In this document: positions 23,505 to 33,068 of the stretch, one piece after another
Layout: each line of letters begins with the position of its first letter
Numbering within the stretch: the stretch's first letter is position 1
NCBI GenBank assembly: GCA_947503105.1
Contig: CANNCM010000002.1
Location: 329,546 to 393,545 of the forward strand
Direction of reading: 5' to 3'
Source of the DNA: an uncultured Flavobacteriaceae bacterium
Lineage (GTDB): Bacteria > Bacteroidota > Bacteroidia > Flavobacteriales > Flavobacteriaceae
Length of the DNA: 64,000 bases
Translations under genes and position numbers: made by a program
The notes under the pieces: generated by a model
The model's input: the letters and a program-made list of their open reading frames with translations, nothing else
Databases searched by the model: none
What the model was told of the DNA's origin: nothing

Positions 23505-26500
23505 ATGAATATTAATTTAATCCCTTGCCGGCCTTATTTCTTAAGAGGCAACATCCTAAAATTTGTTATGAGATCATCTATTTTCTTATCAAGCTTATTC
23601 GTTTTTGGCTTTAGCCCAGGGATAAGTCATTCTCAAAAAGAGAACATTGAAATTACGAAAACAGCCACCTATGAAGTTGCCGAAATATTTGATCTCATTG
23701 TAGCCCAAACCGACTATAATTTTTTATATACCAGAGATTTATTTGATAACATTCCCGAAGTTCGCTTAGCGGCTGGCACAATGCGTACCGATGATTTACT
23801 CAAAAAATGCTTAGGCGCCTCTGCTTTTACCTACAATTTTAAAGGCGATAGCACTATTGTATTGCAAAAAAAACAAACACAACATGCCATTATTGATGAT
23901 AACGATCAGCAGCAAGACATGCTAAGAGGCATCATTAGCGACCAAAGTGGCCTGCCGTTGCCGGGCGTTAATGTGGTTGTAGAACGGCCTGGATCTGATA
24001 TTATAGAAGGGACCTATTCTGGGTTTGATGGAGACTATACAGCTATTGTATCACCCAATGCTACCATAACATTTTCTATGATTGGCTTTAAAACCCAACA
24101 GATTCAATATGTGGGACAAAAGGTACTCAATATTGTGATGCAAGAAGACATAAACGAATTGGAAGAAGTACAGATCGTGAGTACTGGATATCAAAAAATT
24201 TCTAAAGAACGCTCTACGGGCTCTGCTGATGTCGTGAGCGAAAAAACACTGGAAAACTACAAAAACCAACGCACCACCAATAATGTATTGGATCTTCTGA
24301 ACGGAACTATTCCTGGATTGGGGTTTGCTACCAATCAAACTCAATTTGGTCCTGGAACCAAAACACTTTCTATAAGGGGAAGGACGGCTTTTTCATTAGA
24401 TAACAATAATCCCTTGGTTGTTGTGGATGGATTTGAAATTATAGGAGATGATGAGGCTGGAGTTCGTGAAATACTAAGGCGTTATAATCCAGAAGACATA
24501 GAAAGTATCACCGTATTAAAGGATGCCGCAGCAGCTTCCATATGGGGGGCCAAAGCGGCCAATGGAGTTATTGTGATCAACACCAAACAAGGTAAACGCC
24601 GTTCTGAAACCACCACTTCTTTTACATCTACACTTTCATTACAAGAACATCCAGACTATAGCAAAGGCTATCTTGCTTCTGTGGCTTCAAGCCTAGCATT
24701 AGATAAGCTCAGAGTTGACAATAATATGGAATCCATAGCATCACCTTATTGGTTTACTTCTCCCAATAATGAGGGAGCTCAGACATATCAAGATTTAAAT
24801 AATGGAATCATCACACAACAACAGGCAGATGCGATCATAAACAAACTACGACAAACCAATACCATACAAGAATATTCAGATTTGTTTTTAGAAACTGGTT
24901 TGCATCAAAGACACACCTTAAACGTTAGCCATGGTGGAGACCACTTTGGGCTATATTCTTCTTTTGGTTATGATAAAGAAGAAACCACACAAAAAGGAGA
25001 GGAAAGCCGACTTTTTACAGGAAATCTAAATATCAATACCGATATCAGTAAAGGCATAACTCTCGGAGCAAGAGTTAATTTCACCAATGGAAAAGAATTA
25101 AACAATGCGGCTGCAACACCGATTGAGATGATGCAGGCCTACGAACAGTTTCTTGACAAGGAGGGAAACTATATTTTTAGGGATGAGGAAATTCATAAAT
25201 ATACGAGACAAGAGTTAGAAGCTACAGGCATCTATCCTTATGGGTGGGGTTATAATGAAAAACAGGAATTTGACAATATGGACAATACAACCTACAGCAA
25301 CAGCATCGATCTTGGACTGACTTTAAAGGTAAAACTCTTTGAAGGGCTTGATTTTGAAACCGCCTACAACTTTCAAAATAGCAGAAGTGAAGGGCGTAAT
25401 TTACTTAATGAAAATCGATATAATACAAGATACCTCATAAACACCTCTGTTATTTTTATAGACCATGACGATGATCCGACAACGCCAGCAGTATTTGACC
25501 CAACGCAACAATACGATGGATTTGTTCTTCCTAAAGGAAATATCCTTCAATCATCTTACAGAAAATACAGCTCTAGCGGGGGTCGGGTACAACTAAATTA
25601 TAGTCGCTTTTTTGGGCCCGAACAAAAACATTTTGTTACAGCACTTCTTGGTGTCGATTATCGAGAACTTAATAGTGAACTCAATGGTAATGAACTGTAT
25701 AGCTATAACGCCAACTCTAGGACAAATTACTTGCCTGTAGATCTTACCAATCGCTACATGGACTCTTTTGGATATGAAAGGAAAATAGAACCATCCCCAA
25801 CTGTATATAATAGAATCAAAGATCGATTTTTGGCCAACTACGTCAATGGGGCATATACGTATAATGACAAATATACACTGTCTAGCAGTTGGCGTTTGGA
25901 CGATTCTAACCTCTTTGGATCATCGCCAAAATACCGAAATGTACCGCTTTGGTCTGTTGGTGCAAAATGGCAGGCCGCCAAAGAATCGTTTATGCAAAAT
26001 ATAGACTGGATAGACCAATTGGATGTAAGAATCAGTTATGGTACTGGGGGAGCTATTGATAAATCGACCCATCCATTTTTGGCCTATATAAGAGATGTAG
26101 ATTATTTTACTGGAGAAGTCGTAGGTAATATCGTTAATTACAAAAATGACGAGTTGCGCTGGTCCACCACCTCCACCACCAATGTGGGCTTAGATTTTGT
26201 GCTGTATGCAGGTAAACTGAGTGGTAGTTTTGAGTGGTATCGCAAATATACGGATGACTTATTGACGGAAGTCCCTATCAATCCTACCAATGGATTTTCT
26301 AGCCAAACACGTAATTTTGGAGAAGTCTCCAATAAAGGCATCGATTTGAGGTTAACCTATAATCCTATTGACACCGATACCTTTGGTTGGAGCATGACAG
26401 GGCTTCTAAACTACAACAAAAACAAAGTTGAACGTATTGGCGATATTACACAAAACATCGCCTATTTTACAAATGGTAGACTCCCTATTCTTGGTGAGGC

Positions 26501-27140
26501 TCTTAGAACGTTTTACCACTACAAATGGGCTGGACTGAGCGCCACTGGAGCACCACAAGTTTTTGATGCAAAGGGAAATATCACACCATATACAACAGAT
26601 ATAACAGATGTTAACGCCCTAGAAAAAGCGGGGCAACGCGATCCAAAATATTCGGGTAGTTTTCAGAATACTATTCGCTATAAAGGCTTTAGCTTATATG
26701 CTTTAGTTGCTTTTCAACTAGGGCATGTTTTTAGAAAAAAAACTATAGATTACGCCGAAATGAACTACAGCAGAACTCCTCCTCATAAAGATTTTGATCA
26801 ACGTTGGCAAAATCCAGGGGATGAAAAAACGACATACGTTCCTGCCTACAATCCAGATAGTGGGCAAAACTTTAACTATGGTAATTACTTTGAAAATAGT
26901 GATTTACACACCCTCAAAGCAGACCATATACGTTTATCAGCCGTGAGCTTAAACTACGACTTTAACCAACAATGGTTAAGAACTACATTTATCAATTCTA
27001 TCAACATGGGCATCAATGTGCAAAATCTTGGAATTCTTTGGGCAGCAAACAAATATAATATTGATCCATTACTGAATAATTTTAGAAGAACTGCACCAAA
27101 TGAACCCATCTATTCTATTAACGCAAGAATAAAATTTTGA
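23505..27140 (+). CDS. SusC/RagA family TonB-linked outer membrane protein with N-terminal STN domain
   Basis: STN-like EIFDLIVAQTDYNFLYTRDLF; GIISDQSGLPLPGVNVVVE; SusC plug VLKDAAAASIWGAKAANGVIVINTKQG; C-terminal beta-barrel ending in F. Confidence 0.95.
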   Translation: MNINLIPCRPYFLRGNILKFVMRSSIFLSSLFVFGFSPGISHSQKENIEITKTATYEVAEIFDLIVAQTDYNFLYTRDLFDNIPEVRLAAGTMRTDDLLKKCLGASAFTYNFKGDSTIVLQKKQTQHAIIDDNDQQQDMLRGIISDQSGLPLPGVNVVVERPGSDIIEGTYSGFDGDYTAIVSPNATITFSMIGFKTQQIQYVGQKVLNIVMQEDINELEEVQIVSTGYQKISKERSTGSADVVSEKTLENYKNQRTTNNVLDLLNGTIPGLGFATNQTQFGPGTKTLSIRGRTAFSLDNNNPLVVVDGFEIIGDDEAGVREILRRYNPEDIESITVLKDAAAASIWGAKAANGVIVINTKQGKRRSETTTSFTSTLSLQEHPDYSKGYLASVASSLALDKLRVDNNMESIASPYWFTSPNNEGAQTYQDLNNGIITQQQADAIINKLRQTNTIQEYSDLFLETGLHQRHTLNVSHGGDHFGLYSSFGYDKEETTQKGEESRLFTGNLNINTDISKGITLGARVNFTNGKELNNAAATPIEMMQAYEQFLDKEGNYIFRDEEIHKYTRQELEATGIYPYGWGYNEKQEFDNMDNTTYSNSIDLGLTLKVKLFEGLDFETAYNFQNSRSEGRNLLNENRYNTRYLINTSVIFIDHDDDPTTPAVFDPTQQYDGFVLPKGNILQSSYRKYSSSGGRVQLNYSRFFGPEQKHFVTALLGVDYRELNSELNGNELYSYNANSRTNYLPVDLTNRYMDSFGYERKIEPSPTVYNRIKDRFLANYVNGAYTYNDKYTLSSSWRLDDSNLFGSSPKYRNVPLWSVGAKWQAAKESFMQNIDWIDQLDVRISYGTGGAIDKSTHPFLAYIRDVDYFTGEVVGNIVNYKNDELRWSTTSTTNVGLDFVLYAGKLSGSFEWYRKYTDDLLTEVPINPTNGFSSQTRNFGEVSNKGIDLRLTYNPIDTDTFGWSMTGLLNYNKNKVERIGDITQNIAYFTNGRLPILGEALRTFYHYKWAGLSATGAPQVFDAKGNITPYTTDITDVNALEKAGQRDPKYSGSFQNTIRYKGFSLYALVAFQLGHVFRKKTIDYAEMNYSRTPPHKDFDQRWQNPGDEKTTYVPAYNPDSGQNFNYGNYFENSDLHTLKADHIRLSAVSLNYDFNQQWLRTTFINSINMGINVQNLGILWAANKYNIDPLLNNFRRTAPNEPIYSINARIKF

Positions 27141-28552
27141 AACAAAATACTAAATATAAACAGATGAAAACAATTTACTCCTATATACTACTCGCCGCAT
27201 TGTTAAGTTTCTCTTGCGATCGTGATAAGTTGCTCGATCTAAAACCTTTTGATGATATTATCCCAAGCACAGTGGAGGACTTTCGCCGTTTGTTGGATTA
27301 CCATTATTATTATGAACCAGAAATGCTTTCAGATGTAGGGGTTGCACATCTATATAGCATTGATTTATTTATGACTGATGAATATCAAGTATTAGGTGGA
27401 ACCTTTGAAAATCAGTTTAGTACTCACATACGATTTAGAGACGCTGCGACATGGGAAAAAGATTTTGGTGCTCTAAATACAGAGGATTTTGACTGGGCGG
27501 TTTTATACAAAACTATTCTAACGGCTAACATAGTGATAGAAGGTATGAATGACCCAAAAATAACAGGAGATGAAACATTGAAAAACATCTTAAAATCAGA
27601 AGCCAAAGTACACAGAGCACTGGCCTATTTTAGTCTTGTTAATTTATATAGCAAACAATACAATGCTACCAGTGCCGATACGGATTTGGGCGTCCCCATC
27701 AAACTGACGTCAAAACCTGAAATTCAAATCCCGCGTGCTTCTGTAAAGAAAGTCTATGATTTGATTCTCAATGATTTAAAGGATGTTATAGAGATTAACG
27801 CATTGCCCATGGGGAAACAAAAAATTGGCACACGGCCGTCTATGGCCGCGGCCTATGCGGTTTTGGCTAAAACCCATCTGGCCATGGGAGCGTACCAAAA
27901 GGCATTGACGGCAGCCAACAAAAGTCTTCAAAACTACAATACTCTTTTGGATATGAATTCAATTATTTTTTACCCAGAAAGTATAAACAATCCAGAAGGG
28001 ATTGTGATTAAAAAAGCTGCTCTAGAAGGTCCACGAGGGATGTATGCTGCAGATGATTTAATAGCGCTGTATGACCCCTCAGATTTGCGTTTAGAATACT
28101 ATATGGCACTTCCAGAAGACCCAAATAATCCATATATGCTTCAAAGAACGAATATAATTGAAGATAGTTGGCCACTGAGTCCTACAACTCCCGAATTGTA
28201 TTTGATTCGAGCAGAATGCAATGCTCGTGTTGGAGATTTGAATGCCGTTGATAATGATTTAAACGCTATTGGACAAAATCGCATACCGGGCTATACCCCA
28301 CTCCCCAACTATACCGACAGAGCAACCGCCTTGGAAGCTGTCAAAATAGAACGTCGCAAGGAACTCGTGGGAAAAGGCGTCCGTTTGTTTGATTTAAAAC
28401 GCTACAATGCCTTTGACAATGCCAATATTTCACTGACAAGAATTATTGACGGTACAACACATACACTAAAAGCCAACAGTAACCGTTGGATAGTTCCAAT
28501 TGCTAGATCTGTATTAGCACAAGATCCATCACTAGAACAAAGTCCAAGATAA
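27137..28552 (+). CDS. RagB/SusD family nutrient uptake outer membrane protein (lipoprotein)
   Basis: Lipobox SFSCDR; LIRAECNARVGDLNAVDNDLNAI...RRKELVGKGVRLFDLKR. Confidence 0.93.
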   Translation: MKQNTKYKQMKTIYSYILLAALLSFSCDRDKLLDLKPFDDIIPSTVEDFRRLLDYHYYYEPEMLSDVGVAHLYSIDLFMTDEYQVLGGTFENQFSTHIRFRDAATWEKDFGALNTEDFDWAVLYKTILTANIVIEGMNDPKITGDETLKNILKSEAKVHRALAYFSLVNLYSKQYNATSADTDLGVPIKLTSKPEIQIPRASVKKVYDLILNDLKDVIEINALPMGKQKIGTRPSMAAAYAVLAKTHLAMGAYQKALTAANKSLQNYNTLLDMNSIIFYPESINNPEGIVIKKAALEGPRGMYAADDLIALYDPSDLRLEYYMALPEDPNNPYMLQRTNIIEDSWPLSPTTPELYLIRAECNARVGDLNAVDNDLNAIGQNRIPGYTPLPNYTDRATALEAVKIERRKELVGKGVRLFDLKRYNAFDNANISLTRIIDGTTHTLKANSNRWIVPIARSVLAQDPSLEQSPR

Positions 28553-30565: not shown

Positions 30566-31147
30566 ATGATTGAAATTGTTTTTGCAACTAACAACCCCAA
30601 TAAACTTATAGAGGTACAAGCACAACTCCCACAAGGTATTAGGCTCATTAGTCTTGGTGAAATTGGGTGTACAGAAGATATTCCTGAAACCCAAAACACA
30701 ATTGAAGGTAACGCTATTCAAAAAGCCAATTACATCAAGTCTAATTACAATTTAGATTGTTTTGCAGATGATACAGGCTTGGAAGTTCTTTCGTTAAATG
30801 GCGCTCCAGGAGTTTATTCTGCTCGATACGCTGGGCCACAAAAAAATGCAGAAGCTAATATTGAAAAATTACTTTCTGAACTCAAAAATAAACCAAACCG
30901 AAAAGCACAGTTCAAAACTGTAATTGCCTTACATTTCAAAGGAAAATTAATCACCTTTGAAGGGATTTGTAAAGGAGAAATTACACACGAAAAAACAGGT
31001 TTTGGCGGTTTCGGATATGATCCAATATTTAGGCCCATTGGCAAAACCCAAACCTTTGCCGAAATGCCTTTGAAAGAAAAAACAATTATTGGTCACAGAG
31101 GGCTTGCCATTGTACAATTGATCGCCTTTTTCAATAAAAACAAGTAA
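30566..31147 (+). CDS. rdgB: non-canonical purine NTP pyrophosphatase (RdgB/HAM1)
   Basis: FATNNPNKLIEVQ, FADDTGLEVLSLNGAPGVYSARYAG, GFGGFGYDPIF. Confidence 0.95.
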   Translation: MIEIVFATNNPNKLIEVQAQLPQGIRLISLGEIGCTEDIPETQNTIEGNAIQKANYIKSNYNLDCFADDTGLEVLSLNGAPGVYSARYAGPQKNAEANIEKLLSELKNKPNRKAQFKTVIALHFKGKLITFEGICKGEITHEKTGFGGFGYDPIFRPIGKTQTFAEMPLKEKTIIGHRGLAIVQLIAFFNKNK

Positions 31148-31162
31148 CTTAATTATTTAATG

Positions 31163-31170
31163 TATCTTTG
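31163..31170 (+). promoter_or_regulatory. -7 promoter element (TATCTTTG) of DEAD-box helicase transcript
   Basis: TAnnTTTG match just after rdgB stop; no clear -33 TTG at the expected spacing. Confidence 0.5.
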
Positions 31171-31178
31171 CCGCAATT

Positions 31179-31257
31179 CCTCAGGGTGAGGATGTGTTAC
31201 AAGAAGTATGATAAAAATGTTCGATACGCTTCTAAGGTAACACCTTAATAGCACATC
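31179..31257 (+). promoter_or_regulatory. Candidate structured 5' leader of DEAD-box RNA helicase mRNA
   Basis: Hairpin CCTCA-ggg-TGAGG; GATGTG/CACATC closing stem; AGAAGTAT/ATAC(gc)TTCT; AAGGT-aac-ACCTT. Confidence 0.45.
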
Positions 31258-31271
31258 GAATATACATACGA

Positions 31272-33068
31272 ATGAATACATTCCAACAACTTGGACTTGA
31301 AGAACACTTGCTTCAAGCCATAACCGATCTTGGTTTTGAAACCCCAAGTGAAGTTCAACAAAAAGCAATTCCAACCCTTTTATCAGAAGAAAATGACCTT
31401 GTCGCTTTGGCACAAACAGGGACAGGAAAAACAGCAGCATTTGGATTTCCAATGCTTCAAAAAATTGATATCAATAGTCGTACCACTCAAGGATTGATTC
31501 TCTCTCCAACGCGGGAATTATGTTTGCAAATTACAAACGAGTTAAAACTTTATGGAAAGTACTGTAAAGGTCTAAACGTAACAGCAATTTATGGCGGTGC
31601 AAGCATCACAGAACAGGCCAAAAATGTAAAACGAGGGGCGCAAATTATTGTGGCAACTCCTGGTCGTATGAAAGATATGATTAGCAGACGCTTAGTTGAT
31701 ATCTCTAAAATAGATTATGCGGTATTGGATGAAGCTGATGAGATGCTCAATATGGGGTTTTTTGAAGATATTAAATCTATTCTTTCTCATACCCCACAAG
31801 AAAAATCGACATGGTTGTTCTCTGCCACGATGCCAAAAGAGGTTTCTATAATTGCCAAAAAATTCATGGCCAACCCGACAGAAATTACCGTTGGACACAA
31901 AAATACAGGAAGCAAAAATGTATCTCACGAATATTATTTGGTAGGTTCAAGAGACCGTTATGCAGCCCTCAAACGATTGGCCGATGCTAATCCACAGATA
32001 TTCTCTGTTATATTTTGTAGAACAAAACGCGACACTCAAAAAGTTGCAGAAAAACTGATTGAAGACGGCTACAATGCAGGAGCATTACACGGAGATTTAA
32101 GTCAGAATCAGCGCGATTTGGTCATGAAATCTTTCAGAAACAAACAAATCCAAATGCTTGTGGCAACAGATGTTGCAGCCCGTGGAATTGATGTTGATGA
32201 CATCACACATGTAATCAATTATCAACTCCCAGATGAGATAGAAACATACACCCACCGTAGTGGTCGTACAGGACGTGCTGGAAAATCTGGGGTGTCGATG
32301 GTCATTATCACAAAAAGCGAGCAACGCAAAATCAAAACCATTGAAAAAATTATTCAAAAAGCGTTTATCAAAAAAGAAGTTCCTGAAGGAATGGAAATTT
32401 GTGAAGTTCAATTGAAAGCATTAGCACATAAAATTCACGATACAGAAATCAATCATGAAATTGATCCTTATCTTGAAGAAATCAATCTGTTACTTGAAGA
32501 TACAAGCAAAGAAGAACTTATCAAAAAGTTTTTTTCTGTAGAATTTACTCGATTTTTTAATTATTATAAAGGCGCGAAAAACCTCAATTCACCCAAAGGA
32601 AACAACTCTGAATCCGAAATTAGAAGCGATGATCAATCGGCTCGCTTTTTTATAAATATTGGAAAAAAAGATGGTTACGATTGGATGAGCCTAAAAGATT
32701 TCTTGCGCGACAACTTAGGGCTAGGACAGGATGATGTTTTTAAAGTTGATGTAAAAGACAGTTTTTCGTTTTTCAATACAGAAACTGTTCATATGCCAAA
32801 AGTGTTGGAGTTTTTTACAGATTTCAAACAAAATGGACGTTATATCAATGTTGAAATAACAGAGAAAAAAGAACGTAGAGGACAGCGTAAGTTTGGAAAA
32901 CAAAAAGGAGGACGTTCGCGGCGAAAAGATGGTTTTCGATCAAGTGGAGACCGAGGTCGAAGAAAAGATCGAAATAATGAAAATAGTGGTCGGTCACCTC
33001 GTAGATCTTCTGATTTCAAACCACAAGGAAGCGGGTCGTCTCGCCCAAGAAGAAATCGAAGGAAATAA
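31272..33068 (+). CDS. DEAD/DEAH box RNA helicase (CsdA/DeaD-like)
   Basis: AQTGTGKTAAFGFP, PTRELCLQI, VLDEADEML, SATMP, HRSGRTGRAGKSG; DbpA-like RNA-binding C-terminal domain and basic RGR tail. Confidence 0.95.
   Translation: MNTFQQLGLEEHLLQAITDLGFETPSEVQQKAIPTLLSEENDLVALAQTGTGKTAAFGFPMLQKIDINSRTTQGLILSPTRELCLQITNELKLYGKYCKGLNVTAIYGGASITEQAKNVKRGAQIIVATPGRMKDMISRRLVDISKIDYAVLDEADEMLNMGFFEDIKSILSHTPQEKSTWLFSATMPKEVSIIAKKFMANPTEITVGHKNTGSKNVSHEYYLVGSRDRYAALKRLADANPQIFSVIFCRTKRDTQKVAEKLIEDGYNAGALHGDLSQNQRDLVMKSFRNKQIQMLVATDVAARGIDVDDITHVINYQLPDEIETYTHRSGRTGRAGKSGVSMVIITKSEQRKIKTIEKIIQKAFIKKEVPEGMEICEVQLKALAHKIHDTEINHEIDPYLEEINLLLEDTSKEELIKKFFSVEFTRFFNYYKGAKNLNSPKGNNSESEIRSDDQSARFFINIGKKDGYDWMSLKDFLRDNLGLGQDDVFKVDVKDSFSFFNTETVHMPKVLEFFTDFKQNGRYINVEITEKKERRGQRKFGKQKGGRSRRKDGFRSSGDRGRRKDRNNENSGRSPRRSSDFKPQGSGSSRPRRNRRK

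Follow-up and report, generated by a model that had tools for sequence, protein, structure and literature searches.

A conserved, pseudoknot-containing leader RNA as a putative translational operator of a DEAD-box RNA helicase gene in Flavobacteriaceae

In the window analyzed here, a 64,000-nucleotide stretch of DNA from an uncultured Flavobacteriaceae bacterium, the gap at positions 31148 to 31271 separates a Ham1-family gene on its 5' side (30566 to 31147) from a DEAD-box RNA helicase gene on its 3' side (31272 to 33068, plus strand). Comparison of more than 200 leaders indicates that this gap encodes a conserved, structured cis-regulatory RNA with an H-type pseudoknot. We lean toward the view that positions 31178 to 31271 form a cis-acting translational operator of the downstream helicase, probably autoregulated by the helicase. 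The product of the proposed regulated gene (598 amino acids) contains DEAD, Helicase_C, and DbpA RNA-binding domains, each above the Pfam cut-off (PF00270, PF00271, and PF03880), and a basic C-terminal tail; all of its NCBIfam matches fall below the curated cut-offs. The gene lies outside any ribosomal-protein operon. Elsewhere in the window, we recognized by eye a gene resembling those of TonB-dependent outer-membrane receptors and, after it, a SusD-like lipoprotein gene (23505 to 28552), with a gene for a thioredoxin-fold protein downstream of the pair.

Leader DNA of this kind is present in other genera of Flavobacteriaceae; cultured carriers include Psychroserpens, Lacinutrix, and Maribacter. 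A protein search yielded 80 helicase loci with three kinds of upstream region: an A/C type starting with CCTCAGRGTGAGG, a B type starting with GCCGCYGGTATRGC, and leaderless orthologues, which include those of Flavobacterium, Mesonia, Zunongwangia, and Capnocytophaga. Covariance models built for the A/C type (R1) and the B type (R2) match in 185 and 63 of 400 Flavobacteriaceae genomes, respectively, or about 246 genomes combined (about 60%), with two genomes matching both models and a few chance matches possible at these thresholds. About 39% of the sampled genomes have no match, indicating that leader control is dispensable. All 201 strong matches that were fetched (138 for R1 and 63 for R2) immediately precede one and the same gene, that of the DbpA-domain DEAD-box helicase, in line with the proposal of an initial annotation of this DNA that a structured cis-regulatory RNA is tied to the helicase. 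Second matches and out-of-family matches without a helicase are all weak (E values of 8e-4 to 5e-3). A Bacteroidota-wide sample of 396 genomes returned family members plus two matches at an E value of 0.004, and none that is real outside Flavobacteriaceae. The out-of-family matches L278 and L279 have no helicase nearby and were rejected as chance; of the second weak matches in four genomes, that in G069 reflects one leader interrupted by an insertion and the others are likewise chance. In a rough helicase tree, in which our crude leader typing misassigns part of the A/C split, the A/C and B leaders occupy neighboring clades, a pattern that a single origin and some losses could explain.

Folding calculations at 37°C give the whole leader an energy of -31.5 kcal/mol, compared with -16.7 ± 3.2 kcal/mol for shuffled sequences (z = -4.65), and the segment from 31174 to 31271 stands out further (z = -5.47, with none of 200 shuffles as low). 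The leader begins with a hairpin, P1 (UCCUCA-ggg-UGAGGA, 31178 to 31192, with arms at 31178 to 31183 and 31187 to 31192), which is near-invariant in the A/C types, where 95 to 96% of alignment cells are paired. In the B type, P1 is swapped for a different hairpin, GCCGCYGGUAURGC. Four other leaders (L225, L061, L305, and L310) carry unrelated, longer hairpins in its place, which suggests that in some lineages the shape of P1 matters rather than its sequence. The remaining strands follow in the order P2, P3, PK, P3', P2', PK', that of a classical H-type pseudoknot. P2 pairs GUGUUAC (31194 to 31200) with GUAACAC (31237 to 31243) and takes the forms GUGUUAC/GUAACAC, GUGUUGA/UCAACAC, GUACU/AGUAC, and GUGCU/AGCAC across lineages, the last three being double changes. 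P3 pairs AGAAGU (31202 to 31207) with GCUUCU (31228 to 31233); 97% of its cells are paired in the A-type alignment (A1), and double changes are present in the C type.

The pseudoknot helix itself, overlooked in the initial annotation, joins AUGUUCGAU in the P3 loop (31217 to 31225) to AUCGAAUAU (31255 to 31263), which ends 8 nucleotides upstream of the start codon; as DNA, the two strands read ATGTTCGAT and ATCGAATAT. The helix is AU-rich, and its strands have been exchanged wholesale between lineages with pairing kept: in addition to AUGUUCGAU/AUCGAAUAU, we find GUUUACUAG/CUAGUAAAC, AUUUAUUUGU/ACAAAUAAAU, GGUUUAAUCGU/ACGAUUAAAUU, UUACGU/ACGUAA, UUGUUUAUAAG/UUUAUAAACAA, and UGGUUUAUCGC/GCGAUAAACUA. 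The 3' strand usually ends 3 to 15 nucleotides before the AUG, adjoining the start region as in S4- and S15-type leaders. Conserved loop nucleotides flank the 5' strand, AGGUU before it and GUCG after it, with GUCG found just 3' of or within this strand in 125 of 154 unique A/C leaders. GUCG is a candidate ligand contact site. In C-type leaders, GUCG is kept even where it is unpaired. In one species, the pseudoknot loop is interrupted between P3 and the 5' pseudoknot strand by about 160 to 170 extra nucleotides (L237, G069:C5:194121-194385); both halves of its leader are intact, and the insertion, with its roughly inverted ends, resembles a small mobile element.

Several comparisons support this fold. 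In 27 A-type sequences (A1), 89.3% of cells are paired and 34 cells show double changes, versus 12.2 ± 2.7 after shuffling; the corresponding counts are 32 versus 13.4 ± 3.0 in A2 (17 divergent leaders, C-type and others) and 18 versus 8.3 ± 2.9 in A3 (16 B-type leaders), in each case against shuffles that ignore the relatedness of the sequences. When the pairing partner is slid by 1 to 3 columns, pairing falls to 35 to 53%, and such slid controls are far lower in the A, C, and B types. The wholesale exchange of pseudoknot strands with pairing kept is more telling than the shuffle counts. P1, P2, P3, and the pseudoknot helix are all conserved and carry compensatory changes, by which we define the leader family here.

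We also scored each 5' arm against its own 3' arm and against the 3' arms of other representatives (arm-swap test). Own arms fit better in 58 A-type representatives for P2 (z = -5.8), the pseudoknot (z = -4.1), and the alternative hairpin P4 described below (z = -6.6). The same holds in 23 more distant representatives (z = -4.1, -2.1, and -3.4, respectively) and for the pseudoknot in 57 B-type representatives (z = -8.1). P3 gives no arm-swap signal in the A type because it hardly varies there. Further, when each pseudoknot was compared with shuffled downstream sequence, 121 of 173 leaders reached a P value of ≤0.05 and 62 reached ≤0.01, a result that is supportive rather than independent or decisive alone, since AU-rich shuffles also pair. 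A de novo search of every pair of columns in the A-type alignment alone, using a substitution-permuting null modeled on R-scape, found no significant pair; the A-type leaders are too alike and this null is too broad, so we relied on the structure-level and arm-swap tests instead. The RNA survives the comparison of covariation and stem conservation in orthologous leaders, the point on which the initial annotation had staked its proposal.

The strings on which that annotation built its model all lie where it had placed them, but the model itself holds only in part. Its hairpin at 31179 to 31191 corresponds to P1, its pairing of AGAAGTAT (31202 to 31209) with ATACGCTTCT (31224 to 31233) contains P3, and its AAGGT-aac-ACCTT hairpin (31234 to 31246) is retained; the pairing it had regarded as the alternative, GTGTTAC/GTAACAC (31194 to 31200 and 31237 to 31243), turns out to be P2 of the core. 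The core fold that it drew, a three-way junction closed by GATGTG (31191 to 31196) and CACATC (31252 to 31257), is not upheld, as this closing stem shows no covariation in A-type leaders (arm-swap z = 0.0).

The AAGGT hairpin extends to UAAGGU-aac-ACCUUA at 31233 to 31247 (P4) and is present in A-type leaders. Its compensatory forms include UAAGGU/ACCUUA, UUAUGU/ACAUAA, UUUUGU/ACAAAA, CUAAGU/ACUUAG, UAAUG/CAUUA, UGAUAU/AUAUCA, and UUAUGC/GCAUAA. P4 draws on nucleotides of the P2 3' strand, so that a complete P4 cannot coexist with P2, and the strong arm-swap signals of both agree with the earlier claim of two mutually exclusive pairings. Nearest-neighbor folding, which cannot draw pseudoknots, chooses P4 nested within the pseudoknot helix, so the pairing over the start region can persist in both states. 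C-type leaders lack P4, their linker being too short.

A -7-like promoter element of the Bacteroidota TAnnTTTG type, TATCTTTG (31163 to 31170, plus strand), probably places the 5' end of the putative transcript just upstream of P1. Of 155 unique A/C-type leaders, 147 have a TAnnTTTG element 7 to 66 nucleotides 5' of P1, and 72 of 73 B-type leaders have one 12 to 32 nucleotides upstream. Many A-type leaders (for example, L019 and L020) have an extra 20 to 50 nucleotides with an inverted repeat of their own between promoter and P1. The promoter type, the family of the genome and of its relatives, and the absence of matching leaders outside Flavobacteriaceae do not fit the Proteobacteria frame in which the leader had initially been interpreted.

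Bacteroidota mRNAs lack Shine-Dalgarno sites, and secondary structure around the start codon modulates initiation in F. johnsoniae (PMC6847099). Since initiation without such sites needs an unstructured start region, pairing 8 nucleotides before the AUG should repress. The pseudoknot would tie up nucleotides at about -9 to -17 from the AUG, and this start-region pairing would lower initiation. Competition of P4 for the P2 3' strand would create two exclusive states between which the RNA could switch. The most likely signal would be the helicase, because every strong copy of the leader precedes the helicase gene alone and a metabolite is less indicated; autogenous feedback could operate through the RNA-binding domain, the basic tail, or the unwinding activity of the protein. 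We put forward the helicase as ligand, and likewise the sign of the feedback, as hypotheses. Leaderless orthologues often have a TAnnTTTG promoter about 20 nucleotides from the ATG, which we count in favor of leader control.

The RNA-binding domain of YxiN recognizes a UGUUC loop (PMC3695512). This loop sequence occurs in only 16 of 154 A/C leaders, and a comparison of the leader with 23S rRNA revealed no sequence similarity (best local scores of 20.9, versus 21.5 ± 2.3 for shuffled sequences). The obvious route to autorecognition is therefore unsupported, and we rejected mimicry of the HP92/A-loop sequence, as bound by DbpA and YxiN, at the level of sequence comparison. It is conceivable, though rather unlikely, that the helicase is sensed by its unwinding, which would interconvert the P4 fold and the P2/P3 pseudoknot fold, so that the mRNA, as a substrate, would gauge free helicase activity rather than simple binding.

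Similarly doubtful is an RNA thermosensor, in which the AU-rich pseudoknot and the balance of P4 and P2 would shift with temperature and set helicase synthesis in the cold or heat, ligand-free. Helicases are often cold-shock genes, and the E. coli cold-shock mRNA cspA is a thermosensor with pseudoknot-containing alternative folds. By description, the helicase leader resembles it in its cold-shock-type gene and its alternative folds with a pseudoknot, and both the two competing folds and the AU-rich pseudoknot helix would suit such a device. However, a plain thermometer needs neither wholesale-conserved P1 and P2 sequences nor a near-constant GUCG. We think it unlikely that the leader reports ribosome status to the helicase gene by binding some other protein, whether a ribosome-assembly factor or a ribosomal protein such as S1. 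S1 has a high affinity for pseudoknots, and leader pseudoknots are targets of S4, S15, and L20 (PMC10931766); the DbpA domain suggests a ribosome-assembly helicase. The lack of 23S rRNA similarity and the position of the gene outside a ribosomal-protein operon count against this explanation.

A riboswitch, with a small molecule or ion bound by the pseudoknot, is if anything slightly less likely still. The compact pseudoknot and the conserved loop nucleotides AGGUU and GUCG look like small riboswitches in form, but a riboswitch is usually found before multiple genes of a pathway, whereas all fetched strong matches precede a single gene; the B type also swaps out P1 entirely, and Rfam offers no match. 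The location of P1 at the probable transcript 5' end is consistent with an element that only stabilizes the mRNA or protects its 5' end, without any switch, but this improbable reading leaves unexplained the conserved pseudoknot strand beside the AUG and the covarying competitor hairpin. Finally, attenuation or translational coupling via the 10-codon upstream open reading frame that the initial annotation had singled out (MIKMFDTLLR, 31208 to 31240, plus strand) is very improbable: an ATG and stop are present here, but within the same genus the frame stays open beyond the stop in L004 and has no ATG in L006, neither peptides nor stops recur among the leaders compared across the family, and an ATG after P1 is missing altogether from 13 A/C and 3 B unique leaders, so we judge the reading frame incidental.

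The preferred reading, a translational operator regulated by the helicase itself, has parallels among ribosomal-protein leaders. Like the rpsO pseudoknots (S15; E. coli and mycobacterial) and the S4 alpha-operon pseudoknot, which are stabilized by their repressors, the helicase pseudoknot lies in a 5' leader and adjoins or covers the start region (PMC10931766). Those systems act on one protein's own mRNA, and the helicase leader is likewise confined to one gene, its autoregulation being hypothetical; it differs from them in sequence, in details of topology, in its gene, and in that no Shine-Dalgarno sequence is involved. Flavobacterial ribosomal-protein leaders, including those of S4, S15, and S16, are also lineage-restricted, structured, and specific to one gene each, but they are predicted before ribosomal-protein genes rather than a helicase gene (PMC7247131). 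A structured leader, uORFC-6-1, likewise precedes a gene with RNA helicase activity, hflX, in Bacillales (PMC8632094); HflX, however, is a GTPase, and that motif contains an upstream open reading frame and occurs in Firmicutes, so no relation is implied.

The Rfam covariance-model scan suggested in the initial annotation detected no known family: with Rfam 15, only a tRNA exceeded the gathering cut-off in the whole window, and nothing did in the leader and 11 variant-carrying loci, which argues against a deposited family. The main text of a paper describing 104 motifs (PMC2864571) refers to no helicase leader, that of the paper on 20 ribosomal leaders (PMC7247131) refers to no helicase at all, and a 26-genome survey reports only the hflX motif in Bacillales (PMC8632094). 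Full-text literature searches likewise returned no description of the leader, the 224-motif set (10.1093/nar/gkx699) being outside the comparison. The helicase leader is thus probably an unrecorded RNA family and a genetic switch not yet described.

This apparent new RNA family, present in about 60% of the sampled Flavobacteriaceae genomes, would provide putative control of a helicase in mRNAs that have no Shine-Dalgarno sites. It indicates the site from which a pseudoknot can affect the start region of such mRNAs, and it opens DEAD-box helicase autoregulation to direct testing with small reporter constructs.
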